Of a stretch of DNA of 64,000 bases, positions 33 to 33,401 are shown piece by piece. The DNA is from a virus: the IMG/VR virus record IMGVR_UViG_3300046011_004498, positions 1 to 64,000 of that record; one strand, written 5' to 3'. Within the stretch, counting starts at the first letter, position 1. Every line of letters begins with the position of its first letter. The notes under the pieces are model-generated. The model saw only the letters and a program-made list of their open reading frames with translations. It ran no database searches and had not been told where the DNA came from. The position numbers were made by a program, and so were the translations under genes.

Positions 33-476
33 TTAACCGATGAACGACTTCTTCTGGCGGTTAGCCGGAGGAGTAGCCACGACATCATCCTTCTTGCGAT
101 AGATGGTGACGTAGAGCGGCAGGACACGGGTTTCACCCGGCTCCATCTTGGACAGAGCCTCCAGCTTCAAGTCCTCCAGGAACTCGTTCGATTCGGCCTG
201 CTTGTTGGCGAACTCGACAGTGCCGGCCTTACGGGTGTCCGGGTTCATGTTGTCCAGACCCGTCATCTGGGGCAGATTGACGAGGTCAGTGGCCGGGTTG
301 AAGTCTTCCGACTGCGGATCAACACCGTCACGCAGGGTGCCGATGTTCAGGTAGATGGTGGCACGATCACGAATCGGAACCACATTGTTGGCGCCATTGG
401 CTCCAACGTTAGCCAGAGCATTCATCGAAGCAGCGATGACAGCGGGATCGAAGGTCGAACGCGGGGTAGAGGACAT
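33..476 (-). CDS. hypothetical early protein (147 aa)
   Basis: Function is not recognised. The protein starts MSSTPRSTFDP at an ATG preceded by a GGAG ribosome-binding site (CTTTGGAGACTACC). An in-frame extension upstream to 554 would run through the hairpin promoter at 512-530, so the short start is preferred. It is a soluble protein rich in Asn, Asp and Lys with no membrane segment or cysteine motif, and it ends in a basic tail (NRQKKSFIG). It is the first gene after the hairpin promoter and would be read leftward towards the window edge. A CCACC-gtta-GGTGG hairpin (4-17) follows the stop codon. The gene is well supported; its function is unknown. Confidence 0.75.
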   Translation of the reverse strand: MSSTPRSTFDPAVIAASMNALANVGANGANNVVPIRDRATIYLNIGTLRDGVDPQSEDFNPATDLVNLPQMTGLDNMNPDTRKAGTVEFANKQAESNEFLEDLKLEALSKMEPGETRVLPLYVTIYRKKDDVVATPPANRQKKSFIG

Positions 477-511
477 GGTAGTCTCCAAAGTAAGATAAGG
501 GCAAAATCGCC

Positions 512-530
512 CAGACGACACGAAGTGTCG
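512..530 (-). promoter_or_regulatory. predicted vRNAP hairpin promoter 1
   Basis: The perfect inverted repeat CGACAC-GAA-GTGTCG (516-530) gives a 6-bp stem with a 3-nt loop and a central purine (A523) on the template (plus) strand. N4 vRNAP promoters are known to be hairpins with 5-7 bp stems and 3-nt loops centred at -11. Counting 11 nt from A523 puts +1 at 512, a template C (RNA starts GGG). The predicted transcript opens with a hairpin, GGGC-gatttt-GCCC (512-499), followed by the ribosome-binding site of the 33-476 gene. The geometry is seen directly; promoter function is inferred from the vRNAP encoded here. Confidence 0.7.
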
Positions 531-535
531 CCTTT

Positions 536-580
536 GAACAGAGAGTAGGGTCACTGTTCAGCCGAACAGAGTGCGTGACC
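536..580. other. alternative-hairpin region upstream of promoter 1
   Basis: CTGTTC at 554-559 can pair either with GAACAG at 536-541 (12-nt loop) or with GAACAG at 564-569 (4-nt loop). The second fold is lengthened by GGTCA 549-553 with TGACC 576-580. The two structures exclude each other, as in attenuators or terminator/antiterminator pairs. The region lies between the 38-codon reading frame at 696-812 and the next hairpin promoter, so a role in ending the upstream transcript is possible. Neither strand has a U-run after the stem. Confidence 0.4.
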
Positions 581-695
581 TCATGATATTTGCGAATTTT
601 CCCACACCTCTGTGGACACAAACAGCGCATTAGTCATTCCTCACGGGTATGAGGCTGTCGCTTACAATGGTGAAGTATTCCCGCTTCACTAAGGC
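581..695. other. non-coding stretch with small hairpins
   Basis: No convincing gene. It holds short perfect stems: CCACA-cctc-TGTGG around 602-615, CCTCA/TGAGG around 637-652 and GTGAAG/CTTCAC around 671-690. Together with 536-580 and 717-739 this makes an unusually hairpin-dense leader or trailer of the early minus-strand region. Confidence 0.35.
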
Positions 696-812
696 TTATC
701 GACTCTTTGGTATACACACTCTGCTCGGCTGAGCAGTGAAGGAAGCCTTGATGGACCGAAGCCCATCAAGGGTATCCTGCCTCGAACAGGATAAGATGCT
801 ACGTGCTGCCAT
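696..812 (-). CDS. possible 38-aa protein after a two-codon minigene
   Basis: This reading frame (MAARSILSCSRQDTLDG...) is the first of any length after hairpin promoter 2. The only strong Shine-Dalgarno (AGGAGG at 835-840) serves a two-codon frame, ATG-AAC-TAG (829-821). This frame starts 8 nt after that stop, so it could be translated by reinitiation. No domain is recognised. The hairpin at 721-736 lies inside the frame, which argues that the region may instead be regulatory RNA. Confidence 0.25.
   Translation of the reverse strand: MAARSILSCSRQDTLDGLRSIKASFTAQPSRVCIPKSR
717..739. repeat. hairpin repeat, CTGCTC-GGCT-GAGCAG
   Basis: A 6-bp perfect stem with a GGCT loop (721-736), flanked by CACT and TGA. 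The same element occurs in opposite orientation at 554-569 as CTGTTC-GGCT-GAACAG, read on the minus strand. The two differ by one T-A to C-G exchange on both arms, which preserves pairing. Confidence 0.5.
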
Positions 813-820
813 TACAGCAG

Positions 821-829
821 CTAGTTCAT
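821..829 (-). other. two-codon minigene (Met-Asn-stop) with strong RBS
   Basis: ATG AAC TAG follows AGGAGG with a 5-nt spacer, directly downstream of the predicted +1 of promoter 2. Minigenes of this size, such as the lambda bar minigenes, are known to be translated and to sequester peptidyl-tRNA. Whether this one is used is unknown. Confidence 0.35.
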
Positions 830-851
830 AACAACCTCCTGAGATATCACT

Positions 852-870
852 CAATCGGCACGAAGTGCCG
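852..870 (-). promoter_or_regulatory. predicted vRNAP hairpin promoter 2
   Basis: CGGCAC-GAA-GTGCCG (856-870) is a 6-bp perfect stem with the same GAA template loop as promoter 1. The stem differs by G-C for A-T exchanges on both arms. With the loop centre at 863, +1 falls at 852, a template C (RNA G). The transcript begins GAGTGATATCTC, a weak 5' hairpin (GAG/CTC), and runs at once into an AGGAGG ribosome-binding site. It sits directly after the stop codon of the 874-1080 gene. Confidence 0.65.
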
Positions 871-873
871 TAA

Positions 874-1080
874 TTAACGGTAAGTTCTGTGGTTCTTCCT
901 GATGTGTTGGAGCACAGCAGTACGAACACGAGCAGGAGAACCGTCCAGTTGAGCAATGAGACGCTCAACTTGAACTCGTTCAAAAGGCATCAGATCAGCC
1001 TTACGGTCGAGAACGAGAGGTTCAGCAACAGATGTTGCTCTCACCCCATAAGGTGAGTGGATGGTTTGAGCATGTGTCAT
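874..1080 (-). CDS. hypothetical early protein (68 aa)
   Basis: A small soluble protein (MTHAQTIHSPYGVRATSVAEPL...) whose C-terminal half is basic and probably helical (FERVQVERLIAQLDGSPARVRTAVLQHIRKNHRTYR). The start is supported by the leader AGAAGGACTGAATCA before the ATG, a form shared with neighbouring starts at 1397 and 1714. Its stop codon lies four bases from hairpin promoter 2. The C-terminal region could contact nucleic acid, but no family is recognised. Confidence 0.65.
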   Translation of the reverse strand: MTHAQTIHSPYGVRATSVAEPLVLDRKADLMPFERVQVERLIAQLDGSPARVRTAVLQHIRKNHRTYR

Positions 1081-1126
1081 TGATTCAGTCCTTCTGGTTC
1101 AGGATTGATGGTTGGGTGGTGCTTCA

Positions 1127-1171
1127 GGGGAGACCAGTTCATCATAGCGCGTGCTAGAACTGTATCTCCCC
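1127..1171. other. long three-part hairpin between early genes
   Basis: GGGGAGA (1127-1133) pairs with TCTCCCC (1165-1171), CAGTTC (1135-1140) with GAACTG (1157-1162), and TAGC (1145-1148) with GCTA (1153-1156), forming a nearly continuous 17-bp arm. It lies between the stop of the 1188-1397 gene and the start of the 874-1080 gene. No U-run follows on either strand, so it may be a factor-assisted terminator, an RNA-processing site or a stabilising element. Confidence 0.45.
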
Positions 1172-1187
1172 CTTGGCATCGAGGCTG

Positions 1188-1397
1188 TTACCAGCCAGCG
1201 ATGAAGAAGGCTACGATCAGGATGATCAAGCCAATGATGCACTCACAGGCAGCGCCATAGCACTGTTCAGCGGTAGGTTGTCTCGATCTAACCCAATGGT
1301 AGAAGGGACGAATGACGAGAAACAGACCGATGGGCATCAGTATGAGGCCAATAATGAGCTTGGCCCATTCGATGATGGAGATGATGGTGACGAGCAT
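1188..1397 (-). CDS. small two-helix membrane protein (69 aa)
   Basis: The protein has two hydrophobic segments, about residues 2-29 (LVTIISIIEWAKLIIGLILM...) and 50-68 (ECIIGLIILIVAFFIAGW), joined by a basic loop (RPFYHWVRSRQ). This predicts two membrane spans. The start follows AAGGACTGAACACC. The gene belongs to a run of small membrane proteins at 1188-2315, all in the early-type minus-strand region. Such clusters in phages often modify the host envelope or exclude other phages, but nothing in the sequence assigns a role here. Confidence 0.6.
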   Translation of the reverse strand: MLVTIISIIEWAKLIIGLILMPIGLFLVIRPFYHWVRSRQPTAEQCYGAACECIIGLIILIVAFFIAGW

Positions 1398-1402
1398 GGT
1401 GT

Positions 1403-1618
1403 TCAGTCCTTGCTGTGAAGCTCTTCTATGAGTTCACGAATGAGGGGTTTGAGATCGTCCACAGTCTCAGCCTCTTCGAGGCGTTGAAGTCTGATGGACA
1501 GTTGGTCTTGAGCTTGCTCTTGGGCCTGATGGTCACGCCAGTGGTCACCGCATAGGTGAAGAGTGCCACTGGCTACACAGGCGTGTTGAGAGCAGCGTTT
1601 GCACTTGATGAACCGCAT
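1403..1618 (-). CDS. small zinc-finger-like protein (71 aa)
   Basis: The N-terminus carries CKRC (residues 6-9), then H12, C14, H21, C23 and H26, a plausible Cys/His zinc-binding cluster. The rest is a charged probable coiled coil (LSIRLQRLEEAETVDDLKPLIRELIEELHSKD). The ATG follows the 1622-1714 gene closely and no strong ribosome-binding site is seen, so translation may be coupled. The stop is five bases from the next start. The fold suggests a small adaptor or nucleic-acid-binding protein; this is inference. Confidence 0.6.
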   Translation of the reverse strand: MRFIKCKRCSQHACVASGTLHLCGDHWRDHQAQEQAQDQLSIRLQRLEEAETVDDLKPLIRELIEELHSKD

Positions 1619-1621
1619 GGC

Positions 1622-1714
1622 TCAGCCAGTGATGATGTGGTGCCAGCCGATGAGCTGGAGACCGATGAAGGCGATCAGCAGAGCTGCTGTGTCGTACTTG
1701 TTCCAAGTCTTCAT
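1622..1714 (-). CDS. single-span membrane peptide (30 aa)
   Basis: MKTWNKYDTAALLIAFIGLQ... is a 30-residue peptide with one hydrophobic span (about residues 9-23) and a short positive N-terminus. Its leader AAGGTCTGAACCACC closely resembles the leaders of the 1188-1397 and 874-1080 genes, which is the main reason to accept so short a gene. It fits exactly between its neighbours. No function is recognised. Confidence 0.45.
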   Translation of the reverse strand: MKTWNKYDTAALLIAFIGLQLIGWHHIITG

Positions 1715-1720
1715 GGTGGT

Positions 1721-2164
1721 TCAGACCTTGATGTTGAGGTGATTAATGGAGGCAGAGATGCAAGCTTCAAGCTCGGCATAGTCAGCTTGATAGATACTTT
1801 GACGCTTGAGATCGTCAGGATGAATCAGGTGAGGATCAGGAGTGTTGCACGCATCAATCATGCCCCAGAGTTCAGGCGTCATCCAAGGGATTGACGCTCT
1901 GTTCTCTTTACTTGGAACAGGAGTATCGAGGTCATCCTGAAAGGGATCGATGTCAGCAATGCTCTCATCTTGATGAATAAGTACATCGGCAACGTGTTCA
2001 AACGTGCTGATCACGATGACAGTGAGTACGACGAAGCCCATGAAGATCATGGCTGTACCAGAGATCGTGGGTGCCATGTTGGAGGTGGAAGATGCTCCGA
2101 TGAAGGCTACGCCTAGAGCAATGATGCAGATGCATACGATGATGCCGAGGGCACGAGAGAGCAT
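1721..2164 (-). CDS. membrane protein with acidic cytoplasmic tail (147 aa)
   Basis: Two hydrophobic segments near the N-terminus (about residues 4-25 and 34-54) precede an acidic soluble domain (HQDESIADIDPFQDDLDTP...). The start is marked by AGAAGGAAATAGACCC, whose AGAAGG overlaps the last codons of the upstream 48-aa gene. This is the largest of the early membrane-protein cluster. No family is recognised. Confidence 0.65.
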   Translation of the reverse strand: MLSRALGIIVCICIIALGVAFIGASSTSNMAPTISGTAMIFMGFVVLTVIVISTFEHVADVLIHQDESIADIDPFQDDLDTPVPSKENRASIPWMTPELWGMIDACNTPDPHLIHPDDLKRQSIYQADYAELEACISASINHLNIKV

Positions 2165-2168
2165 GGGT

Positions 2169-2315
2169 CTATTTCCTTCTGAAGAGGGCAGAACGGCAGA
2201 ATGCCTGAACTGCGATGAAAATGTAGCCTACACAGGCAAGAGTGATGCCTGTTGCGAGGAATAGAGCGAATGGATTGTGGTGTGCTTCAGTGAAGCAAGC
2301 GATGATCAAGTCCAT
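2169..2315 (-). CDS. small membrane protein (48 aa)
   Basis: MDLIIACFTEAHHNPFALF... has one clear span (about residues 15-38) and a basic end (RSALFRRK). A TTGGAGCC ribosome-binding site precedes the ATG. The last codons hold the ribosome-binding site of the next gene (1721-2164), consistent with coupling in one transcript. It is short and its function is unknown. Confidence 0.5.
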   Translation of the reverse strand: MDLIIACFTEAHHNPFALFLATGITLACVGYIFIAVQAFCRSALFRRK

Positions 2316-2362
2316 AGTAGGCTCCAATGAACACGGATTGATGTTTTAAGGACAGATTAAGG

Positions 2363-2380
2363 GTGAGAGTAGGGTCTCAC
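2363..2380. other. hairpin with GACCCTACTCTC loop, possible early terminator
   Basis: GTGAGA (2363-2368) pairs with TCTCAC (2375-2380). Read on the minus strand the element includes GACCCTACTCTC, the same 12-mer displayed by the hairpin at 536-559, whose stem sequence is different. It lies after the 2433-2708 gene, where the transcript from promoter 3 could end. Confidence 0.4.
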
Positions 2381-2401
2381 ACTCTATCGGTTGTAGTCCT
2401 T

Positions 2402-2427
2402 GGCCCCCAGCCCGGAGGCTGAGGGCT
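2402..2427. other. GC-rich hairpin after the 2433-2708 gene
   Basis: GCCCcCAGCC pairs with GGCTGaGGGC around a short loop, with one mismatch. It directly follows the stop of the 2433-2708 gene on the minus strand and has no U-run. It could stabilise the mRNA end. Confidence 0.35.
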
Positions 2428-2432
2428 TGAGG

Positions 2433-2708
2433 TCAGGTTGCGGTGGAATCCTCAGCGATGATGGCTTCGAGGAACTCCTTGTTGGAGTTGTAGAGCTGTA
2501 CTTGAGCAGGTGAGAGGCCTGCGTGCCACATGGAGTGGGCAGTTTGGGCATTGGTGAGCTTCTCGTTGTGCTCTTGCACACGGAGTTTGGAGGCAACGCC
2601 CAGTTGGAGCTTGATGTCAGCGAGCTTTGCTTTGTGTTTGAGCTCAGCGATGGCGACATTGTTGGTGATGCCAGTGGAGATGGCACGAGAGATGGTCATG
2701 AGAGCCAT
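2433..2708 (-). CDS. hypothetical early protein (91 aa), first gene after promoter 3
   Basis: The protein (MALMTISRAISTGITNNVAIAELKHKAKLADIKLQLG...) is helical throughout, with regular Leu, Ala and Lys spacing in residues 18-60 that suggests a coiled coil. It ends EAIIAEDSTAT. A ribosome-binding site (AAGGACACACACC) precedes the ATG, and the predicted +1 of hairpin promoter 3 lies 31 nt upstream. Being first on that transcript suggests an early takeover role, but the sequence gives no direct clue. An overlapping frame on the same strand (2384-2686) is low-complexity Ser/Pro/Thr and was rejected. Confidence 0.65.
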   Translation of the reverse strand: MALMTISRAISTGITNNVAIAELKHKAKLADIKLQLGVASKLRVQEHNEKLTNAQTAHSMWHAGLSPAQVQLYNSNKEFLEAIIAEDSTAT

Positions 2709-2738
2709 GGTGTGTGTCCTTGATCAAGGGATTAGTCC

Positions 2739-2756
2739 CAGTAGACACGAAGTGTC
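2739..2756 (-). promoter_or_regulatory. predicted vRNAP hairpin promoter 3
   Basis: GACAC-GAA-GTGTC (2744-2756) is a 5-bp stem with the same template-strand GAA loop as the other two promoters. With the loop centre at 2750, +1 falls at 2739, a template C (RNA GGGA). The RNA opens with a hairpin GGGA-ctaa-TCCC (2739-2728), followed by the ribosome-binding site of the 2433-2708 gene. The layout is the same as promoter 1. Confidence 0.7.
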
Positions 2757-2778
2757 GTGGTAAATAGGTGGGGTGGTG

Positions 2779-2832
2779 TGTGTTATAGGTGTTATCATGT
2801 ATGGGGGGGTACATTTGTGTTATGGGTGTTAT
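2779..2832. repeat. two 17-bp direct repeats upstream of promoter 3
   Basis: TGTGTTATAGGTGTTAT (2779-2795) and TGTGTTATGGGTGTTAT (2816-2832) differ at one base and are 37 bp apart. They lie in an AT-rich gene-free stretch (2757-2937) that also holds GTACAT/ATGTAC arms around 2810-2835. Binding sites for a regulator are possible; nothing else is recognised in this gap. Confidence 0.5.
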
Positions 2833-2937
2833 GTACCCATACCCCTAAACCAGAACATAACTATCAACTTTACCCTAATGTTTTCATATAATATGAAACT
2901 CTTTCCCCTTTCACCCCTATCTAAAATATAAAATATA

Positions 2938-3273
2938 TTAATCCCATCTACCACTTTGACCGAACACTGTTCGCTGTACATACGCTGGGTTCTCAGTATC
3001 GAATTGCTCTACTCTACTGAAGTCTAAGACTTGGATGGTATTATCATCGTGTCTCTTCCATACTAATGCCCAAGATTCATCATCATTGGTTCCAGCTACA
3101 TCTACGCTGATGTTGTAGGGTGTAATGAAGTTAGTAGATACTAACTGTGAACCAGCACCATCACATTCATTGCATGTGATCTTGGATAAAAAGAGCATAT
3201 GGGTTTCTCCTCCCTCAGGAGTAATCATCCCTTTACCCTCACAGTTACTGCAAGTTACGGATACTATGCTCAT
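2938..3273 (-). CDS. DnaJ-type zinc-finger protein (111 aa)
   Basis: Two CxxCxGxG-like units are visible: CSNCEGKG (residues 9-16) and CNECDGAG (34-41). This is the signature of the DnaJ/HSP40 cysteine-rich zinc domain. The C-terminal half (ITPYNISVDVAGTNDDESWALVWKRHDD...) looks like a small beta domain of unknown type. Phages often encode such short DnaJ-like zinc proteins without a J domain; their roles are mostly unknown. It starts one base after the stop of the 3275-3604 gene, so the two are co-transcribed. Confidence 0.65.
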   Translation of the reverse strand: MSIVSVTCSNCEGKGMITPEGGETHMLFLSKITCNECDGAGSQLVSTNFITPYNISVDVAGTNDDESWALVWKRHDDNTIQVLDFSRVEQFDTENPAYVQRTVFGQSGRWD

Positions 3274-4457: not shown

Positions 4458-4533
4458 TGGTAGAAGAGATAGGACTTGAACCTATAACCTCCACGTTATG
4501 AGCGTGGGGCTCTAACCATTGAGCTACTCTTCT
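4458..4533 (-). tRNA. tRNA with CAU anticodon (elongator Met or Ile2)
   Basis: On the minus strand the 7-bp acceptor stem (AGAAGAG/CTCTTCT), D-arm (GCTC...GAGC), anticodon stem (CCACG/CGTGG), loop CTCATAA, T-arm with TTCAAGT, discriminator A and encoded CCA are all present. The A1-U72 pair and absence of the three G-C anticodon-stem pairs argue against initiator tRNA. CAU could be Met or lysidine-modified Ile; the sequence alone does not decide. Confidence 0.9.
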
Positions 4534-4723
4534 ATAAAGAACTACAAAAGACGCCCCTTCCCGGAGTGCGTTTGAATGAAAACTCTTGTAGCTCTTCACT
4601 AAAGAGGCCCCAGACCTAAGCAGTTCTCAGCTAATGATCTAGGGCCTCTCGAAGGTTGGAGGGTCTTATTCTCCCGGCACCTTCCTGCCGATCCGAACTC
4701 CATGCAAGCATGGTGTCGAATAG
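4534..4723 (-). ncRNA. structured spacer between tRNA-Met and tRNA-Thr
   Basis: No gene. A 190-nt spacer with GAGGCCC/GGGCCTC arms (around 4602-4650), CGGCA/TGCCG (around 4676-4691), a CATGC/GCATG palindrome near 4701-4712, and CTACAA/TTGTAG near 4543-4591. It lacks a T-loop consensus, so it is not a fifth tRNA. It may be an independent structured RNA or processing spacer. Confidence 0.3.
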
Positions 4724-4799
4724 TGGTGCTGTCTGTAGGGATCGAACCCACGACACCCAGTTTACAAAACTGGCGCTCTACCAACTGAGCTAAGACAGC
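4724..4799 (-). tRNA. tRNA-Thr (UGU)
   Basis: On the minus strand: acceptor GCTGTCT/AGACAGC, TA at positions 8-9, D-arm GCTCAGTTGGTAGAGC, anticodon arm CCAGT-TTTGTAA-ACTGG (anticodon TGT), T-loop GGTTCGATCC, discriminator A and encoded CCA. All arms pair. Confidence 0.93.
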
Positions 4800-4804
4800 A
4801 ATAA

Positions 4805-4881
4805 TGGCGATCACATCAGGACTCGAACCTGAGACCCTCTGCTTAGAAGGCAGATGCTCTATCCAGCTGAGCTATGTGACC
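4805..4881 (-). tRNA. tRNA-Arg (UCU)
   Basis: On the minus strand: acceptor GGTCACA/TGTGATC with one G-U pair, D-arm GCTCAGCTGGATAGAGC, anticodon arm TCTGC-CTTCTAA-GCAGA (anticodon TCT), T-loop GGTTCGAGTCC, discriminator G and encoded CCA. It reads AGA codons, which are frequent in the late genes of this phage. Confidence 0.93.
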
Positions 4882-4892
4882 AAATACAGAAG

Positions 4893-5011
4893 TGTTGGTT
4901 TAATGTTACTTGACGTTTCCCGCGTACACCCATCGGAAGAGCACAACGATTTGATCTAACTATCACAAGTTAGACAATAACATTACTTTGATTTCCTGCG
5001 TTAAACCAACA
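4893..5011 (-). ncRNA. candidate structured RNA between tRNA-Arg and tRNA-Leu
   Basis: A nested fold is visible on the minus strand. An outer 9-bp stem joins 5003-5011 to 4893-4901, an inner 8-bp stem joins 4978-4985 to 4901-4908, and an apical hairpin CTAACT/AGTTAG spans 4956-4973. The 3' arm TAATGTTA plus TGTTGGTTT is contiguous, while the 5' partners are split by a 17-nt bulge (4986-5002). It lacks a T-loop and a canonical anticodon arm, so it is not a tRNA. No known family is recognised. Confidence 0.4.
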
Positions 5012-5045
5012 AATTGACAGGAGGAGGACTGGCTCTCCGATCTTT

Positions 5046-5131
5046 TGGTGCGAGCTAAGGGACTCGAACCCTTACACCATTACGATAACAGATTTTAAGT
5101 CTGGTGCGTCTACCAGTTCCGCCAAGCTCGC
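5046..5131 (-). tRNA. tRNA-Leu (UAA)
   Basis: On the minus strand: acceptor GCGAGCT/AGCTCGC, class II D-arm (GGCGGAACTGGTAGACGC), anticodon loop CTTAAAA (anticodon TAA), a long variable arm, T-loop GGTTCGAGTCC, discriminator A and encoded CCA. The first anticodon-stem pair is a C-U mismatch. The 86-nt length fits leucine tRNA. Confidence 0.9.
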
Positions 5132-22748: not shown

Positions 22749-22780
22749 AGCTCCTCACATATTGTGGGGAGCTTTTTTTC
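22749..22780 (+). terminator. terminator between the lysozyme-like gene and vRNAP
   Basis: AGCTCCTCACA-tat-TGTGGGGAGCT has one mismatch and is followed by a 6-7 T run. An in-frame GTG at 22764 lies in this hairpin and is not a plausible start for the vRNAP gene. Confidence 0.85.
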
Positions 22781-22826
22781 TGATACAGAAGACGGGTTAT
22801 CCTGCATTTGCACGGGCCGTTATATT

Positions 22827-25800
22827 ATGTCGAACGAACGTTTCCTTTCAGCAGTTCCTCAAGAAGCTGTAGAACCTGACTATTATAATGTAGGTGCTGC
22901 AAGATACCGAGGTAATGGATCGTTAGTTCCGAACGAACGCTTCCAAGATGCCCGCACAATGAATGCGGATGAGTTGGTAGCAAAATACGGCGAAGAGCAG
23001 GGCTTACAAATTCTTCGAGCTCGTGCAGGTGGGGATGCCTCTTTTCACGGAGATTTAGCATCTACTCGTTCAGGTCTTGCCCCTATAACAGATACAGCAG
23101 GTAGTGCTGCTACTGCTCTGTTTGGTGGATTAGGTGGTATTGCTGCTCTCGGTACTGGTCTTGTTAATCAAGATGCAGGTGTTGGTTTAGCAGACATCGT
23201 AAATGAAAATAGTGCTTGGGCCAGAGAGAACCAATCCTATGCTTTGAATGCACGACGTAGAGCGTCAGCTGCACAAGCAAATGTTAGTTCTGCTGATAAC
23301 CAAGCACGTTATGAACAAGAGCGAGAAGATGGTGAGGGTTTAGCCACTATCAGACGTATTGGTCGTAACTTTGTTGATCAATCTGCCATTACTGTCAGCG
23401 ATGGAATGCTGGTAACAGACAGTGTTGCTCAGGGCGTTGGTTCACTTGCTGGTGGTGGTGTAGTTTCCGGTGGCTTGAAAGCAATTGGTAGACAAGCTCT
23501 TACACGTTTTGGAGCTGGTCGTTCTGCTGCTGTAGCTATTGCTCAGCCTCGTGTTTACGATGCAGCTGTCGCTACTGGTCGAGTTCTCGACCGTAGTCGT
23601 ATGTCTTTAGCTATTGGTGCGCTTGAGGGTGGTGGTGCTTACACAGGCACAATCGATCAAGTGATGGCAATGTCTCATGATGAGCTTCTTGAAAGCTCTC
23701 AGATGTACAGAGAGCTTATTGATGCTGGTATCAATCCAGCCAGAGCAAAAGCTAGAGTTGCTAATAGAGCCGGTCAGATAGCTGCTGCAATCCAAGCACC
23801 TATCGGTGTAGCAACTGGTGCTTTAGTATCTAAGTTTGAAGCCAATCCTTTACGTGCTGGCTCATTCTTAACTGGTGCTTCTAACGTTCTTAAAGAGACA
23901 GTTGAAGAAGGTATTCAATCTGGTTCAGGCCAGTTTGCCCAAAACGTTGGTATTAGGTCTGCGGCAGATAATGAATATAACTTAAGCCAAGGTGTCGGTG
24001 AAGCTTCTGCTGAAGGAGCTATCGCTGGTGCTGGTACAGCAGGTGTGTTTGCTGGTCCTTCGGCAGTTATGGGTACAACAAGAGATTTAGCCCAAGGTGC
24101 TGCTGATTTAACTAGAAGACAGATTGATTCTCTTATTAATAAAGGAAGAGAAGAAAACAATCGTAATAGTGTTGATGCTCAAGCAGAGATTTCAAACGTT
24201 GTTAGAGCTGCTGTAGCTCCTAAAGTTTATGTTCCTACACAAACTGAAGGCATTGATCCTATCGATGATGAAGCTGAATTTACTACATACCAGAATGACT
24301 TAGCTGCTTTGGGTCAGCAGTTTGGGTTTGATCCTCAAACTTATGAACCAAAGACAGAAGCTGAAGCACGTCTGTTAGGTAGTATTCCTGCCGAGGAAGC
24401 TTCCAACATTATTGATGTGATGCAAGCAGCTGCCAATAGAATGGCAGAGCAAGATGCTACACCTGAAGAACGTCTTGAACTGGCTCTGTTTATTCATGAA
24501 CAACAGAACAGAATTACACCTGAGAATCTTGAAGCTGTCAGAGCATTACAGGCTAAAGTAACACCCGGTGGTGCTATTGCTAATGATCTGAAAACAATCA
24601 TTACTGCTCAAGCAGCTATTACAGACAACATCCTTTTCAAGGATAGTCTTGAAGCTGCGCTGAAATCTGTACCTCCGATAAAGGTTGAAGATGTTGAAGA
24701 TATTTCGACGCCGGAAGGTCAAAGGGCTGCAAGGACGGGTGCCCTTCAAACTATGCTCTTCCCGGAGACCGTACCCCAAGAAGTTCTCGACAGACTGTTC
24801 AAACACTCTGAGAATGACGATGCAGGCGAAATCTTTACGCCGCAGCAAAAGGTCGCTCTTCGTACCGAAGCTATGCTCTCAAAGACGCTCCAAGCGTCCA
24901 CAGCTGCCGCTGAAGTCTTGGGTGTTAAGCCTCCCGAAGCATCTCGTGTAGCCTTTGAAATCCAGTCTGCTGATGCTCAGGAAGCTGGCTCAGCAGGGCC
25001 ATCTGTTCGTGCTCACACAGAAGGTGTGAACAGACTGAAGGCCATGGGTGACACTGCTGGTGCAGCTGAAATGCTGGCTGAGTTTGGTAACTTTGCTCAG
25101 CACATGGCTAACAAATTAGCTGCTGTGAATGAGTCGTTCGTTGGTCGTACTGAAAAGAACTATAATCCTGAAGTTTTTTATCAAGCCTACAATAGAAAAA
25201 CTAAGGAATGGTACACACCCAAAAAGGGTTGGACTGTTGCTCGTTTTGGTAAGAATCTGAAGTCAATTGTGGATTCTCAGCAGATTGGTATCGATGCTGA
25301 GTACACTATTGATTCGTATAACCAGTTAGTTGCAGAAAATCCTGAACTTGGTCTTAAGCCTGTTGAAGCTATCCGTATGGATTCTGGGCTTAAAAAGATT
25401 GCTGATCAGGTGTTCAAAGATGCTAAGAAAGCAGACTTTGATGAAAAGAATCCTGATATTGTAGCTAAACGTAGTGAATCTACTACAATTGAAACAAAAC
25501 AACAAAATAATACAACAGATACTAAATCAACTGAAAAGAAAGTTGAACCTGTTGTAGAGCCAGATATCAAACCTTCTGTTGTTGTTGATGATCTTAAGAA
25601 TGAATCTATTCCTACTCTCGTTGCACTTCTGAAAGAAGTACAAGAACTTAAGGATGAAGTTAAGTTTGAACGAGTTGCATCTGAACTTCGTGTTCGTAAA
25701 CTTGAAGCTGAAGCAGCAAAAAATGCTGCTCAAGTTCAAGCAGCTGAAGTAGTCGCAGAACCGAAGGCGGAGCCGGAGGTTCAAGCGACGGAAGAAGCTG

Positions 25801-28800
25801 CGCCTGTTGAAAAGAAAACTACTTCTATCAAAGAAGAGTTTCCTGATCTGATCCAATCTACATCTGGAGAGAACCTGCTTCTTGATGGCTTCTCCCTAGA
25901 TGGGGAAAGTCAGACTCGTTTGGTTGGTGAAGGTGCTATTGCATTAGAAGATGTCATAGCAGCGGTAACCAATTCAGATGCTTTTGCAGAGATTACTGAA
26001 GAGCCTGAAGCAAAGCTTTCTGGTGATGTCACTCGTGCGTACAGCAAAGTTATGGGTGCTATTCGCCTCCCAATTTACACCCGGTTAATGGCTAGGTTTG
26101 CTGGAAGACGACTGAAAAAGAACGAGAAAATCTTTACGCCTGTTATGGATGGCAGAACGCCTTTGGATAAGAGTGATCCTCTTGGGATTGCCAACACCGA
26201 AGCACGCCTGCTCAGCTTGATGGAACGTAAAGAAGACGGTTCTCTGAACTATAACGACAAGATTCTGACAGCAGGCTTACTGGCCTTAGCCGATTGGTTG
26301 GCTCAGAACAGTGTAACTTCGCCTCATAGAGATGCCGACAGTGTTGCAAGATCACTTAATCTTACTCGTCAACCTATGTTGGTTGATGAGGAACTGGTGA
26401 ATGCATTTAATAAAGGTACTAATATTACGATAGCACAACGTTCATTAGCTAATAAGATTGAAAGATATCTTGGTCTTAAAGCAAATGCAGACGTTCCTAT
26501 TGGTCTTTCTCATGGTGTGACCTTAGGCTTTGCTGCTGAACTTCTTCGTGCAGCTGTTGAAGCAAAGTTTGTTCAGACTGAATCTGTTTATAAGTCTGAT
26601 GAGTTTAACTTTGTGTTTGTTAACGTGAACACAGATGAATTAGGTCTTGCTAAGTATGGGCAAGAAGGACCTAACTTTAAGGGTCAAACCAGACTCATTG
26701 AACGTATCGTCACAAATGATGAGAGAGCGGTTGGGTTTGCTCTGAAGCCTTCCGGTTTTGCTAAGAAAAAACAGAAGGGTGGTAATGCTGTTACGACGCC
26801 CGAGCAGATGGATACAGAGGTTCGTGAAAACGCTGTAGGTCACGGACTGAACATGCCTGTGTACGAGCGTTACGCACGCCTTGGTCCTGATGGTATGCTG
26901 CGCCTGTTTGGTAATGGTGTGCTGCCGCCTACCATGAACAAGAACACAAGGCTGTCCAAAGAGAGCCAGAATACTTCTGTGAAGGGAGCCTTCCAGACGA
27001 TCTTAGGTCTGATTGATCAGATGCAGACGGCTGTTAGTACAGCTACTTCTGCCGCTGAACTTAAAGATATTCGTGTGTATTATGAGTACATCTTTACCTC
27101 TGTAAATCGTATGCAGCAGCAAGCTGCTTACGGGAACCAATCATCTAAGATGGTTCGAGAGGTTCTGACTCCTAACGGTAACGTTGTAGACTTATCTTCT
27201 ACAGACACTGCTGATTATCAAATGTGGCGTAGAGGTCTGGCTCAGGCTTTAGGTATTAAAGTTGAACTCCAGTTTGATAGTGTCTGGGATGCTAACTTAG
27301 AGAAAATCTTGCAAAGCGAAGAAACACAGAAAGCTGTTTCTATGCTTCAAAACTATACCAATGTTGAGCCAAATGCTCTCATTGATGCTGTGAAGGATGT
27401 ATTCCGCAATAAGAATAACCCTCTAATTGATCCTGAAGTTCCTGAAGTAGGGTTCCATGCTTTAGTATCTTACGCCGATTATCTGACAGCTAAAGCGAAC
27501 GGAACAGCATCTGCCTTTACCACTCACATCTATGTGGAAGCAGACGGTAAAGTGGACGGTGCCACTAACTCGCTGTTCTATATGAGACTGGGTGGTTTTG
27601 ATCTTGAGATGATTGAAGCCCTGACAAGAGGTGGTTTCGACTTCAGCAAGACACCTATCTCATTGGCTCAAACCTATGAGCCTAATGCAGAGGGTGTTGT
27701 TCCCGGAGATGCATATCAAGTCAGTGGTGTTCGCACTGGTGTCTATATGCAGGAGACAATCCAGAATGTGATTTCCAAGGCTAATGATTCTGCTCAAAAG
27801 TCTAAGCTTATCAATCAAGTTGAGGCAATGAACATCGTCATGACAACGCTGCTTGGCTCTAAGGAGTTCAGGTATAAGCGAGATGGTGAGCAGTGGAATT
27901 TCGAGATCGGTCGTGGGCAGCTGAAAAACCCCATGACAATTACTGTCTATGGTTCAGGTGTTAAGGGCATTGCTGACAAAGTAGCCAAAGAGCTGGCTGG
28001 TAAATTGTATGAAGAAATTTCCAGAGCCAATGCATTAGCTGTTCAGAATAAACAGCCCGATAACTGGGCTACTTTCATGTTCTATGATGGTGGTAAATTT
28101 ACAGAAAGTGCCACTAAATCTGTGACATTCTGGAAAGCTCTTGATGTTCTGACTTCTGCAAGTGTTCGTAGTTTCACCGACGATGGTGGTCAGCAGAAAT
28201 ATTATACCAAGAAAATGGATGAAGCCCGTGCTCCGGGAACTTCAACATCTGCTGTTCAGTACACACTGAAAGCTCAAACTTTAGAACTGTTGTCTGATAC
28301 AATTAGACAGTTCTACGTAAGGCCAATGGTTGATGCTATCAACAAGGAGATGGGTTCATCTATTGATGGTTCTAAGTTGATTCAAGAATCAACAAACTTA
28401 CTGTCCTCGTTAGCTAGAGCAGCATTTGATCGACTCATCGCAGTTGAGATGCAGAAGATCAAAAACAAGAGCGATGGTCTGTCTCCTAACCAGATCAAAA
28501 CCATCATGTCTAAGGTAGCTTTCCTGCTTCCTTACATTGAAGGTGATGAGATCAATATCAACGTTAAGGGACTGGAGATGTCCCCAATTAACGTAATTGA
28601 TCCTAAGACAGGTAAACCAAGCAGAATTCCATACGCATCGACCATGAATGGTCCTATTTTCACGCAGTTGGAAATTCCTACACCGCAGATCGCAGGTGTG
28701 GCTGGTGGTTCATATCTGAACATTGCTTATGGTGATGGTCGTATGATCATCAAGGCTTCCCCCGGTCTGATCGGTGGTCGTCTTATGATCTTCGACGGTA

Positions 28801-31800
28801 TCAATCTGTCGATTAAAGATGCGATTGCAAATGGTGTAGCTATTAACAAAACTACGCTTGATGCCATTCAGTCTGGGACACCGTTCTCTGACTTGATGAA
28901 AACGTTCAAAGAACTTACTGAATCATTCAACTTAAGTGTCTTTACTGAAGAAGAATTGAACAGTGTTGTTGAAAATAACACTGCTGATGAATACAATTTA
29001 CCTGATGAACTGACACCTTCTGATTTTGTTGAAGGTCTTATCTTTAGTCTGACAAACAGACTTGATCTTGCATCTAAGCAAGAGCGAGCTCGTCAGGCTA
29101 CGTTGAAGCGTGTTCACCTGTCTTCAGACCACATGGCAGCAATCAATGCTCCTGCGTCTACGGCTGCTGACAATAGCCGTGAAGACCTTGGTGCTTTGAC
29201 TCCTGAAGAGAAGGCAAAACGTCTGAATGAAATCTACGAGGAAGAGCTCGCTAAGATTGAGAATGCACCTGTAGTCAAAGACAACACTTCTGAGAACATC
29301 AGTAGTGCTTTCGACAACTTGCCTAAGCATGAGACTGGAGTTCGTATTACGAACACAGCTCAGCTTACTGAACAATTGAGCAGCCTTAATCTTCCTAGAG
29401 AGCAAGCTACACTCATCAATCGTGCTTTGATCGCTCTGAAGAATGATAACTGGACGGTCGTTATTGGTTCCAAGAGAGCAGCTACAGATTACCTTACAAC
29501 AAGAGGTATCCGTCACACCTTCAAGAAGGGTGACAATGGTATTGCTGCTCCGGGTCAGAAACTGATTGTGGTGGCTAATGGTTCGTCTGAGACTTTGGCT
29601 CACGAGCTTATCCATGCTGCGACCTTTGATAAGGTAGATGCATTCTTCAGTAACCCTGAAGTGCTGGAACCAGCTGTAAGAGCTGCTTTAGAACGTCTGG
29701 TTATTCTACAAAATGAATGGCTTAGTGCCACTTACTTACGCAAAGTGAACGGACCTGACGACACTGTGCTTCATGCAAGAGCAGCTATTGAAGGCTTCTT
29801 GAGAAAGGGAGATCAGTCGTCTGCTTTGAATGAATTCATGGCATGGAACTTGGCTAACCAAGGTCTGATGAATCTGAACTCTAAGATCAAAGTTGAAAGC
29901 AAGCTGGCTCGTATCACCAGAGAGATGGTTTCTCTGCTTAAGCGTATGTTCTCTCTGCCTGACAATAATGATCGTATGGATTGGAACATTCGTTTCAACT
30001 CCTTGATTGTTATTGGCAGCAAGCCACTTACACCCACCCTTCAAGCAGCTAATCGAATTCTTCAGCACTCTACTGGGACTCGTCCTGATCTGGATGACAT
30101 CGCTCAGAAGATGGCTAAACTTGTTGGTCGTGCTGATATCAATCCTGAGCTTATGAAAAAGCTCAAGATTAAACCTAGTGAAATGGCCTTAGCTTATGGT
30201 GAAAATGCAGCCATTATTGCTAAAGCTAATGGCTTTGACATGAGTAACGAAGAACAACGTGCTTTCGTTATGATGGTTGCTGCTTATCATGCGAACCAAA
30301 TTGCTGATCCCACCTTCAACGTTAAAATGAATAACTACTACAGCGAAGTGCTGGAGCAGTTAGACCAAAACGTTATGATGATGGACAGGGATTCTAAAGA
30401 CCCAGCAGAAGCTGCACGCGCTGATATGCGTTACGATATCCTGCGTGGTAAGTTCGATATGGGAGTCGATATGCTTGCTGTGTTTGTGGCCTTAGGCGCT
30501 ACAAACGAGATTGCTCAAACGCTCTTCAGTCGTATTCGCGTCAGAGACAAAAAGCTGTCCTTACAAGGTAACACTGTTGACAGTGTGCTGCGTAAGGATG
30601 GCGCAGCCCTGATCGATAAGCTGATGGATAACTCCTACAGCCTTCGTCCAAATCAGAAGATTGGTGATGAAGTTCTTAAGCTGGCTGTAGCTATGGTTGA
30701 GAAATCTGATCGTGAGCAAGGACTTCTGAACAAAGCTTTCGGTGAAACTGGTAACTTTGTTCGCAAGGCTAACGACAAGCTGGCGGACACCATTTCCTAC
30801 GGCTTAGGGAAGACTGCTGACGCGATCCAACAAGGAATCGATGCCTCGAAGGGTACATCCTTAGAGGGCGTTGTAGGACCCCTTGGAGACGTTCTGAAGC
30901 TGGGTGTCGAAGTCATGGATAAAGCTAGAACGCAGGATGCTGTGTCTAAGCTGACTTCCATGCTTAACAGCAATGATATTCATCCTGAAATCAGAAGCAT
31001 CATTGTAGAACTTATGGGTTCTAATGAAGATAACCAGACTATCTTTGAGCTGATCAAAAAGGGTCGAATGGTTATCGATAAAGTTCGTCAGGCATTCTTG
31101 AAGGGTATGCCTAAGCAAATCAAAGATAAGTTTACCAGAACTCTGACTAAAGAAGAGTGGGCTGCTCAGCACTTTGCTTATGGTCAATCTGACATCTCTG
31201 TTCTGTTGGATCAGAAGATGTCTATTGAAGGTATCATTGATCTGTTTGCTACACCGTCTTCTATTCCTCAGCTTCTGTCTCAGAAGGAAGCTGAAGTTAA
31301 GAGACTGTTTGGTAATCAAGCTAACACTATCCTGAAGGAATCGTATGATCTTGCACAAATGATGGATCGTGGTCGTCCTTCAAATGGATTGGTTAAGCGT
31401 AATGCTCTGGCAATTGCTAACCGCGCAGGTGAAGCGACAGTTGGTACATTTGACATTCTGAGCCCAGAAACCAAGGCAATCGACGGATATGTGTCCTTGT
31501 TGGTTCTGTCTCGTATGCAACCAGATATGATGAACACACTCAGCACTTTAGCTAAGACTGAGCGTGTTGGTATGGAGTATGCATTAGCTCTGGTGGCTCA
31601 AGCTCGCGCACATGAGATGAAGCGTGTTCCTGAGCGTCATAAGTACAATATCAACAAGGGCTATATGCCCACTGAAAAGCTTGGTTCGTTTAAGGCTGTG
31701 CCTTACGATAAAGTTAATGAGTATACCAAGGTTGGGTATAAGATTGTTGGTAGTAGAACTATTGGTGCTGTCGAAGGTCTGTATGATAATGGAAAACAAC

Positions 31801-33401
31801 GTGTTTATGTTGCTACTGATTTAACAGCTCCTGCTGTTAAACAAGGTATCATGCGTACCATTCGTCCTACTGTGTTTGGTTTAGATATTTCTAGCGGTGC
31901 TTCGTATGACAACCCGTCTGCTGGATTGATTACTGACATTACTGCTGTGAGACAAATCACTAAAGCTCTTCAAAAGAAGAGTGATAATGATAAGCTTCTT
32001 TCTCCTCTTTATAATAAAGATGGTGAAATCTATGCTTATGAGAGATTAGTTGATATAGCTGATGTCGAACACAATCTTGAAACTCAACAGAATGTAGCTG
32101 TGTCTGTCGGTATGTGGATGGGTCGTCAACATGAAGAAATTCAAGCACGCATCATTAATGATGTGCTGATTGAGCGTATGGCTAAAATGTATGAGACAGC
32201 GGGTCGTCGTGCACAGACTGACGAGTTTGTTGATCTGAAAGAATTAGCTGCAACTGATCCTGTAATTGCTGATGCTATGTCCTTGATCAATGATCAGGAT
32301 ATGAGGGAAATCTACGCCCGTATGGGCGGTAAGTTCATGGTCAGAAAAGACCTGTACAATAACATTATTGGTTTCCGAACCATGAGCATTGGTGATCTCT
32401 GGACGGGTAACACCACTCTTGAGAAGAATAATAGAGAAGCAGCAGCTAACTTCCTTACAGGTATCTTAGGTCCTGAAGCTTACCGTCGTTTAACTGTCGG
32501 TGAACAAGCTTGGGAAAACCTGATGGGAGATGCACGTACTGCTATCGTTATCAAATCTATGTTGGTTCCAGCATTGAATGCTGCGGCTAACTTCTTTCAG
32601 CTTATGGCTAACGGCATTGGTCCTATTCAGATCGCCATGAAGACGACTGAAATGCTCAGAGAGACTCATTTCTATGCACAAAAGCAGTTAGAGCTTCAGA
32701 GCTTAGAAGTGGATTTGGCTAGAGCACGAGGAGCCAAGCGTCCAGATGAGGTTCGTATTCTGGAAACCAAGATGCGTGTCATTGAAGATATCATCAAGCG
32801 TCTGGCTATCTATCCTCTGATCCAAGCAGGTGAGTTTAACCAGATTACCGAGGGTCTTACTCAAGATGATCTGGAAATGACTAAAGGACGTATGTGGGAT
32901 CGTGTTAGTAAATGGGCTGACAAACTTCCGCCTGCTGTGAAAACTGCTGGACGTTATGCTGTAGTGGCTAAAGATACTGCTCTGTTTGATGGTCTTACAA
33001 GAACTGTTGCCTATACAGACTTTGTTGCTAAGGCAGTTCTCTATGATCATCTGACAAGAGTTGTTAAAAAGACCAAAGCAGAAGCCTTGCTGGCTATTAC
33101 CAACGAGTTTGTAAACTATGACTTACTTGCAGGTAGAGGTCGCACAAAAGCTGAAGCTCTTGGTTTAGTTTGGTTCCCTTCCTTCAAGATTCGTTCGATT
33201 AAAGTTGCTGCTAGTTTGATTAGAAACAACCCGCTTCATACGTTCTTGAGTTCACTGGTTCCGGGTTCTTACGAAGCTGGTACAGTCATGGATGATAATG
33301 GGGTCAATCTCATTCTCGATGGTCGTGCAGATAATGCATTTGGTATCTGGAATGCATGGAGAGGTGCTGCACTTCTTCCTGTTGCTCAGGTAATTAACTA
33401 A
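22827..33401 (+). CDS. giant virion RNA polymerase, N4 gp50-like, with zincin-like domain (3524 aa)
   Basis: All four single-subunit RNA polymerase motifs are present in order. T/DxxGR appears as TSVNR (residues 1424-1428) and motif A as VDGATNS (D1577). Motif B is R1696-x3-K1700-x7-Y1708-G, nearly the T7 pattern, and motif C is IFDGIN (D1990). Length and motif placement agree with the 3500-aa N4 vRNAP, which is packaged and injected to transcribe early genes. The N-terminal 1000 residues are Ala-rich and helical. HELIH at 2259-2263 suggests a zinc metallopeptidase fold after the polymerase. The C-terminal 1000 residues are helical and unassigned. ATG 22827 is chosen because upstream in-frame starts lie in a terminator. 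Confidence 0.9.
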   Translation: MSNERFLSAVPQEAVEPDYYNVGAARYRGNGSLVPNERFQDARTMNADELVAKYGEEQGLQILRARAGGDASFHGDLASTRSGLAPITDTAGSAATALFGGLGGIAALGTGLVNQDAGVGLADIVNENSAWARENQSYALNARRRASAAQANVSSADNQARYEQEREDGEGLATIRRIGRNFVDQSAITVSDGMLVTDSVAQGVGSLAGGGVVSGGLKAIGRQALTRFGAGRSAAVAIAQPRVYDAAVATGRVLDRSRMSLAIGALEGGGAYTGTIDQVMAMSHDELLESSQMYRELIDAGINPARAKARVANRAGQIAAAIQAPIGVATGALVSKFEANPLRAGSFLTGASNVLKETVEEGIQSGSGQFAQNVGIRSAADNEYNLSQGVGEASAEGAIAGAGTAGVFAGPSAVMGTTRDLAQGAADLTRRQIDSLINKGREENNRNSVDAQAEISNVVRAAVAPKVYVPTQTEGIDPIDDEAEFTTYQNDLAALGQQFGFDPQTYEPKTEAEARLLGSIPAEEASNIIDVMQAAANRMAEQDATPEERLELALFIHEQQNRITPENLEAVRALQAKVTPGGAIANDLKTIITAQAAITDNILFKDSLEAALKSVPPIKVEDVEDISTPEGQRAARTGALQTMLFPETVPQEVLDRLFKHSENDDAGEIFTPQQKVALRTEAMLSKTLQASTAAAEVLGVKPPEASRVAFEIQSADAQEAGSAGPSVRAHTEGVNRLKAMGDTAGAAEMLAEFGNFAQHMANKLAAVNESFVGRTEKNYNPEVFYQAYNRKTKEWYTPKKGWTVARFGKNLKSIVDSQQIGIDAEYTIDSYNQLVAENPELGLKPVEAIRMDSGLKKIADQVFKDAKKADFDEKNPDIVAKRSESTTIETKQQNNTTDTKSTEKKVEPVVEPDIKPSVVVDDLKNESIPTLVALLKEVQELKDEVKFERVASELRVRKLEAEAAKNAAQVQAAEVVAEPKAEPEVQATEEAAPVEKKTTSIKEEFPDLIQSTSGENLLLDGFSLDGESQTRLVGEGAIALEDVIAAVTNSDAFAEITEEPEAKLSGDVTRAYSKVMGAIRLPIYTRLMARFAGRRLKKNEKIFTPVMDGRTPLDKSDPLGIANTEARLLSLMERKEDGSLNYNDKILTAGLLALADWLAQNSVTSPHRDADSVARSLNLTRQPMLVDEELVNAFNKGTNITIAQRSLANKIERYLGLKANADVPIGLSHGVTLGFAAELLRAAVEAKFVQTESVYKSDEFNFVFVNVNTDELGLAKYGQEGPNFKGQTRLIERIVTNDERAVGFALKPSGFAKKKQKGGNAVTTPEQMDTEVRENAVGHGLNMPVYERYARLGPDGMLRLFGNGVLPPTMNKNTRLSKESQNTSVKGAFQTILGLIDQMQTAVSTATSAAELKDIRVYYEYIFTSVNRMQQQAAYGNQSSKMVREVLTPNGNVVDLSSTDTADYQMWRRGLAQALGIKVELQFDSVWDANLEKILQSEETQKAVSMLQNYTNVEPNALIDAVKDVFRNKNNPLIDPEVPEVGFHALVSYADYLTAKANGTASAFTTHIYVEADGKVDGATNSLFYMRLGGFDLEMIEALTRGGFDFSKTPISLAQTYEPNAEGVVPGDAYQVSGVRTGVYMQETIQNVISKANDSAQKSKLINQVEAMNIVMTTLLGSKEFRYKRDGEQWNFEIGRGQLKNPMTITVYGSGVKGIADKVAKELAGKLYEEISRANALAVQNKQPDNWATFMFYDGGKFTESATKSVTFWKALDVLTSASVRSFTDDGGQQKYYTKKMDEARAPGTSTSAVQYTLKAQTLELLSDTIRQFYVRPMVDAINKEMGSSIDGSKLIQESTNLLSSLARAAFDRLIAVEMQKIKNKSDGLSPNQIKTIMSKVAFLLPYIEGDEININVKGLEMSPINVIDPKTGKPSRIPYASTMNGPIFTQLEIPTPQIAGVAGGSYLNIAYGDGRMIIKASPGLIGGRLMIFDGINLSIKDAIANGVAINKTTLDAIQSGTPFSDLMKTFKELTESFNLSVFTEEELNSVVENNTADEYNLPDELTPSDFVEGLIFSLTNRLDLASKQERARQATLKRVHLSSDHMAAINAPASTAADNSREDLGALTPEEKAKRLNEIYEEELAKIENAPVVKDNTSENISSAFDNLPKHETGVRITNTAQLTEQLSSLNLPREQATLINRALIALKNDNWTVVIGSKRAATDYLTTRGIRHTFKKGDNGIAAPGQKLIVVANGSSETLAHELIHAATFDKVDAFFSNPEVLEPAVRAALERLVILQNEWLSATYLRKVNGPDDTVLHARAAIEGFLRKGDQSSALNEFMAWNLANQGLMNLNSKIKVESKLARITREMVSLLKRMFSLPDNNDRMDWNIRFNSLIVIGSKPLTPTLQAANRILQHSTGTRPDLDDIAQKMAKLVGRADINPELMKKLKIKPSEMALAYGENAAIIAKANGFDMSNEEQRAFVMMVAAYHANQIADPTFNVKMNNYYSEVLEQLDQNVMMMDRDSKDPAEAARADMRYDILRGKFDMGVDMLAVFVALGATNEIAQTLFSRIRVRDKKLSLQGNTVDSVLRKDGAALIDKLMDNSYSLRPNQKIGDEVLKLAVAMVEKSDREQGLLNKAFGETGNFVRKANDKLADTISYGLGKTADAIQQGIDASKGTSLEGVVGPLGDVLKLGVEVMDKARTQDAVSKLTSMLNSNDIHPEIRSIIVELMGSNEDNQTIFELIKKGRMVIDKVRQAFLKGMPKQIKDKFTRTLTKEEWAAQHFAYGQSDISVLLDQKMSIEGIIDLFATPSSIPQLLSQKEAEVKRLFGNQANTILKESYDLAQMMDRGRPSNGLVKRNALAIANRAGEATVGTFDILSPETKAIDGYVSLLVLSRMQPDMMNTLSTLAKTERVGMEYALALVAQARAHEMKRVPERHKYNINKGYMPTEKLGSFKAVPYDKVNEYTKVGYKIVGSRTIGAVEGLYDNGKQRVYVATDLTAPAVKQGIMRTIRPTVFGLDISSGASYDNPSAGLITDITAVRQITKALQKKSDNDKLLSPLYNKDGEIYAYERLVDIADVEHNLETQQNVAVSVGMWMGRQHEEIQARIINDVLIERMAKMYETAGRRAQTDEFVDLKELAATDPVIADAMSLINDQDMREIYARMGGKFMVRKDLYNNIIGFRTMSIGDLWTGNTTLEKNNREAAANFLTGILGPEAYRRLTVGEQAWENLMGDARTAIVIKSMLVPALNAAANFFQLMANGIGPIQIAMKTTEMLRETHFYAQKQLELQSLEVDLARARGAKRPDEVRILETKMRVIEDIIKRLAIYPLIQAGEFNQITEGLTQDDLEMTKGRMWDRVSKWADKLPPAVKTAGRYAVVAKDTALFDGLTRTVAYTDFVAKAVLYDHLTRVVKKTKAEALLAITNEFVNYDLLAGRGRTKAEALGLVWFPSFKIRSIKVAASLIRNNPLHTFLSSLVPGSYEAGTVMDDNGVNLILDGRADNAFGIWNAWRGAALLPVAQVIN

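Follow-up and report, generated by a model that had tools for sequence, protein, structure and literature searches.

Only for one phage is it known in detail how an injected polymerase recognizes hairpin promoters, and three short palindromes near the left end of a stretch of viral DNA raise the question whether a remote relative of coliphage N4 starts its early transcription from promoters of the same kind. The stretch analysed here (the window) comprises bases 1-64000 of the 72,847-bp record IMGVR_UViG_3300046011_004498, an uncultured relative of N4. The palindromes, at 516-530, 856-870 and 2744-2756, each carry a GAA loop that can be read directly in the sequence, and the original prediction took them for three early promoters of the virion RNA polymerase (vRNAP) encoded in the same window. 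We find four such hairpins rather than three, the additional one with a predicted start at record base 67959, outside the window, and judge from sequence comparison that they are very probably the early promoters of the phage's own vRNAP. This reading is well supported because the loop, stem length, spacing, +1 C and template strand obey the N4 rules, because two of the four sites precede gp2 and gp15 as in N4, and because the encoded enzyme is of the N4 type.

The hairpins of the window are CGACAC-GAA-GTGTCG (516..530; 6 bp, -4 to -18), CGGCAC-GAA-GTGCCG (856..870; 6 bp) and GACAC-GAA-GTGTC (2744..2756; 5 bp, the pair beyond the fifth being A.G), all on the plus strand, which would be the template for RNA running leftward; the fourth, CGCGAC-GAA-GTCGCG (record 67963-67977, plus strand), follows the same rules. 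Setting the loop centre to -11 places +1 at 512, 852, 2739 and 67959, as had been counted earlier for the first three, and the template base is C at +1 and A at -1 at all four sites. With stems of 5-6 bp and 3-nt loops the hairpins fall inside the N4-type definition of 5-7 bp, and each of the four satisfies the N4-type loop requirement, C-GAA-G with a purine at -11. The stems vary at -6 (A, G or C) and -7 (C or G) with co-varying partners, so that pairing is preserved, as the original prediction had said, while -8, -9 and the loop are invariant. The proposed common CAC/GTG core is present in the three window hairpins and lacking in the fourth; CAC-GAA-GTG was accordingly dropped as a motif and the shared core redefined as AC-GAA-GT, with -7 variable. 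Folded as single-stranded DNA, the three window hairpins give -3.2 to -5.7 kcal/mol (N4 P1 -4.0, P2 -4.7), and a repeat search groups them as its first direct-repeat family, with a 21-nt unit running from +3 to -18. The sequence CACGAAGTG occurs in three copies in the window against 0.34 expected, a number reached in 0 of 100 shuffles, and the whole record holds just the same three. As had been anticipated, the hairpins are confined to early leaders across the entire record.

We scanned the record with rules that are independent of the earlier motif and were taken from N4 (PMC4496689), viz., a C-GNA-G loop, a stem of at least 5 bp, template C at +1 and A at -1. The scan returned exactly four sites, 512, 852, 2739 and 67959, all on the plus strand with A at both -11 and -8. 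In each of 500 dinucleotide shuffles at most one site of a class was found, as against four of one class in the record, and 171 kb of non-early DNA from this phage, N4, JWDelta and phiAxp-3 contained a single rule-matching site. The identical scan of the first 20 kb of N4 recovered P1, P2 and P3 and nothing more. Since the rules derive from N4, enzymes with other rules would escape detection; by these rules no convincing hairpin was found before gp2 or gp15 in V13, OLIVR1, Ea9-2, ZX86, RHEph22, X2_28B and others, and thus the rules do not span the whole family.

The likeness to N4 P1-P3 covers both architecture and position. In either phage the hairpin is on the template strand, with a stem of 5-7 bp and a G(A/G)A triloop closed by C-G and centred at -11, the template carries C at +1 and A at -1, and sites stand before gp2 and gp15; the GAA loop and the C-G closing pair of the present hairpins are identical to those of N4 P1. 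The first gene of the predicted 512 transcript (33..476, minus strand) is a homologue of N4 gp2, the single-stranded DNA-binding cofactor of RNAPII (phrog_4099, E 1.2e-11; N4 gp2 itself matches this family with E 6.2e-50), and starts 36 nt from the predicted +1. Behind the 67959 promoter lies a homologue of the RNAPII subunit gp15 (record 67060-67923, phrog_2166), 36 nt from +1 if it starts at a TTG or 72 nt if it starts at an ATG, the latter being the likelier start codon; a homologue of the other RNAPII subunit, gp16, is at record 65452-66645. N4 P2 and P3 precede gp2 and gp15, respectively, the same genes as the 512 and 67959 sites, and the 512 site is the equivalent of P2. Two differences from N4 are the number of promoters (four here, three in N4), the 2739 and 852 sites having no clear N4 counterpart, and base -8, which is G in N4 and A in all four hairpins here. 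Record bases 4-129 are repeated at 72722-72847, and from this 126-bp overlap of the ends it follows that the assembly closes on itself and that the region left of base 1 joins the right end, making the early region continuous. Gp2 was also used to retrieve 20 early regions of other schitoviruses; in about 15 of them such a hairpin precedes gp2, and in the N4 subfamily gp15 likewise has one in front of it. In the interval that separates the fourth promoter from the gp15 ATG there is a strong terminator-like stem-loop, GGGCCATTGTC-TTTT-GACAGTGGCCC plus TTTCATTT (record 67911-67939; L009:3911-3939), a possible attenuator or read-through block.

The vRNAP gene (22764..33401, plus strand) encodes 3545 aminoacids and aligns end to end with N4 gp50 (E 0, residues 34-3539). 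Its polymerase domain, the equivalent of mini-vRNAP (25869..29252, plus strand), retains K437, R440, E557, D559 and D951 (N4 numbering), and an AlphaFold model of this domain (predicted local distance difference test, pLDDT, 74) has the N4 mini-vRNAP-P1 complex as its best PDB match (PDB identifier 3c2p, TM 0.81). By alignment and model, therefore, the encoded vRNAP is a genuine N4-type enzyme. The gene content likewise identifies the phage as a schitovirus: it has the Schitoviridae trait of a virion RNA polymerase of about 3500 aminoacids together with two more RNA polymerase genes (gp15, gp16), PHROG matches recognize the core set of terminase, portal, major head protein, DNA polymerase, primase and single-stranded DNA-binding protein (SSB), and the record length fits the Schitoviridae range (59-80 kb). 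The nearest named phages are remote, with gp16 identities of at most 49% and polymerase domain identities below 30% (about 27% to N4), and on the vRNAP tree this phage forms a long, weakly placed branch outside the clade that contains N4.

Three observations weigh against assigning the hairpins to this vRNAP. The N4 enzyme reads A/G at -11, G at -10, G at -8 and C at +1, and -8G is specifically recognized through a contact with R904 of the specificity loop (PMC4496689); all these contact bases are matched here save -8, which is A in 4/4 hairpins. The base at -11 stacks on W129 in the N4 enzyme (PMC4496689), and we found no clear counterpart of W129 in the present protein, where the alignment is poor at the -11 element owing to an insertion. 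Finally, searches with vRNAP, gp16 and gp2 for close relatives returned near-identical fragments only, and identical hairpin sites are carried by those near-identical contigs only, so that the lineage affords no evolutionary test through compensatory changes. As a separate observation on the -11 position, the loop centre is C in four phages (L057, L058, L060, L062), whose vRNAPs (L027, L029, L033, L038) all lack W129; the converse fails, as absence of W129 does not imply -11C.

Palindromes of this size could instead be intrinsic terminators or processing signals of early transcripts, and their small, GC-rich, intergenic character, together with a terminator-like site at 499-512 adjoining one of them, would fit. 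None, however, is followed by a T-run on either strand, a terminator scan does not list them, start codons preceded by Shine-Dalgarno sequences lie 23-72 nt beyond each predicted +1, and termination has no need of C-GAA-G, +1 C or -1 A, which leaves this explanation improbable in the extreme. At the adjoining site, the stem-loop GGGCG-AUUU-UGCCC (499..512, minus strand), terminator-like by pattern, would form the very 5' end of the gp2 mRNA, its first base being +1; the 2739 transcript would similarly begin with GGGA-CUAA-UCCC (2728..2739, minus strand), again with +1 as first base, the 852 transcript has a weaker 5' stem-loop and the 67959 transcript has none. The transcripts from N4 P1 and P2 also begin with a 5'-terminal stem-loop. 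Across the rule-based sites of schitovirus early regions (L045-L064, N4 as L005, and this phage), a 5'-terminal stem of at least 4 bp is present at 33 of 59, a count that is not made up of independent cases as the sites partly share descent; shuffling the RNA beyond base 2 leads one to expect 9.3 and yields at most 19. These stem-loops argue for the correctness of the predicted +1 positions; in the open-licence literature we found no mention of a 5'-terminal stem-loop at +1 of early RNAs.

Perfect palindromes repeated upstream of genes are also typical of operators, and a phage or host DNA-binding protein might occupy them while host RNA polymerase makes the early RNA from elsewhere. A scan for promoters of the sigma70 type shows no enrichment (3 sites against 6.7 expected), and operators would not be expected to show one-sided conservation to +3, C at +1 and A at -1 in 4/4 cases, or the same layout before gp2 and gp15 in vRNAP-bearing relatives; we regard this explanation as very unlikely. 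For hairpins acting as vRNAP promoters, analogy with N4 suggests the following course of events. The vRNAP would enter the cell together with the DNA, host gyrase would supercoil that DNA so that the 5-6 bp hairpins extrude, and host SSB would open the opposite strand. The enzyme would then bind the template-strand hairpin through the C-G-closed GAA triloop and probably stem base -8, and RNA would start opposite the template C that lies 11 nt from the centre of the loop. Promoters 2739, 852, 512 and 67959 would thereby drive leftward early transcription, with gp2 and the RNAPII subunit gp15 among the genes transcribed; these two proteins may then take over middle transcription. The sites, their rules and positions, the gene identities and the enzyme homology are read from sequence; extrusion, binding, the actual start sites and a preference at -8 we infer from the N4 precedent.

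The original prediction had proposed CAC-GAA-GTG as a new specificity. That does not hold for the loop and closing pair, which are those of N4 P1, and retains force for base -8, where A replaces G, although the corresponding preference of the enzyme is only deduced. F1966 of the specificity loop (codon at 28659..28661, plus strand) aligns with N4 R904, gap-free from the conserved AGVAG motif. With -8A in 4/4 hairpins and F1966 so aligned, the hairpins appear N4-like in working and outside the -8G specificity class of N4, and it is plausible that the enzyme of this phage reads A rather than G at -8. About 20 relatives combine R904 with detectable promoters, and their rule-perfect early sites carry -8G, with the exception of two stray non-G sites (L051 5031, L056 6193) away from gp2 and gp15. 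Where the 904 position holds E, as in two lineages, there is one -8C hairpin in each (L066; L071, whose stem has 4 bp), and L069, with K there, has three -8C hairpins. In the lineage of L069 (5195, 5868, 6311) and L070, three hairpins read CC-G(C/T)A-GG and have the template C displaced downstream by one base, as though transcription began one position later.

Such pairings could suggest a code in which residue 904 sets -8 (R with G in N4, F with A here, E with C in two others) and the base at the loop centre depends on the -11 element, so that the present enzyme would be orthogonal, starting on -8A and not on -8G; we put this forward tentatively and think it rather unlikely in that full form. 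A strict rule by which residue 904 dictates -8 was not accepted as proven, as Salmonella phage FSL SP-058 and L061 contradict it and too few independent pairs exist. SP-058 has R aligned at 904 and yet shows correctly spaced GAA-loop hairpins with A, A, T, T and C at -8, one of them beside gp2, while L061 retains -8G with A904 aligned, and a tree-based test of joint change of R904 and -8G was not significant (2 independent pairs). Given these exceptions and the tree test, a specificity switch is at present a hypothesis. The same data lend themselves to the view that the hairpins are vRNAP promoters in which -8 goes unread in this lineage, specificity being confined to the GAA loop with its C-G closing pair and to +1 C, with -8A due to chance or drift. 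The constancy of -8A here while -6 and -7 vary, and the consistency of -8G at the early sites of the R904 genomes, speak against an unread -8, and we give this view a real chance, if somewhat short of even.

Hairpin promoters have been predicted by sequence inspection in the Pseudomonas phages LIT1, LUZ7 and PEV2 (PMC3715699) and from sequence in the Pectobacterium phages CB1, CB3 and CB4 (PMC6027278), those of CB1 being annotated in GenBank. Like the present set, they precede early genes of N4-like phages and were deduced from sequence, but they have other stems and loops and distant vRNAPs, LIT1 combining -8C with GAA or GTA loops. SP-058 (Ithacavirus) comes closer, with C-GAA-G hairpins, +1 C and -1 A, and with two -8A hairpins, CTCAC-GAA-GTGAG and AGCGAC-GAA-GTCGCT, the latter 38 nt before gp2; it differs in that -8 is unfixed (A, T, C) and its vRNAP sits on a long branch of its own. 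A 2015 review compares homologues of vRNAP, gp1, gp2 and RNAPII and not their promoters (PMC4496689). As judged from sequence, the set is thus of the same kind as the published predictions, in a new lineage and with one defining contact base changed, and its novelty is limited because hairpins of SP-058, LIT1, L066 and L069 also have A, C or T at -8. What it adds is a deep relative whose full promoter set departs from the N4 rules at a single point, where the matching protein contact differs too. This provides a defined enzyme-promoter pair on which the evolution of recognition can be tested, and it might serve as an orthogonal polymerase-promoter system on single-stranded templates. Across the family, the comparison shows, neither -8G nor a purine at -11 holds generally, although N4 had led both to be taken as general.

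Of the two promoters without a clear N4 counterpart, that at 2739 precedes a small early-type open reading frame (ORF) of 91 aminoacids (2433..2708, minus strand), 31 nt from the hairpin promoter and with no PHROG match. Upstream of it, window 2760-2945 is intergenic and very AT-rich and is a candidate, by analogy with the AT-rich middle promoters of N4, for RNAPII promoters. The region transcribed from 852 (531..852, minus strand) has low coding capacity, holding a 2-codon ORF after a Shine-Dalgarno sequence and then a 38-aminoacid ORF, and has strong RNA structure: its 322 nt fold at -131 kcal/mol (z -6.2), the genome background has a mean z of -2.3 (sd 1.4), and 2 of 90 random windows fall below it. 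No homologue was found in Rfam or phages, and the region is possibly a structured early RNA. Elsewhere in the window, a 651-aminoacid ORF without PHROG matches lies downstream of the vRNAP gene (34340-36295, plus strand), and four tRNA genes (Met, Thr, Arg, Leu) are located at 4458-5131 on the minus strand, between the early region and the terminase gene.

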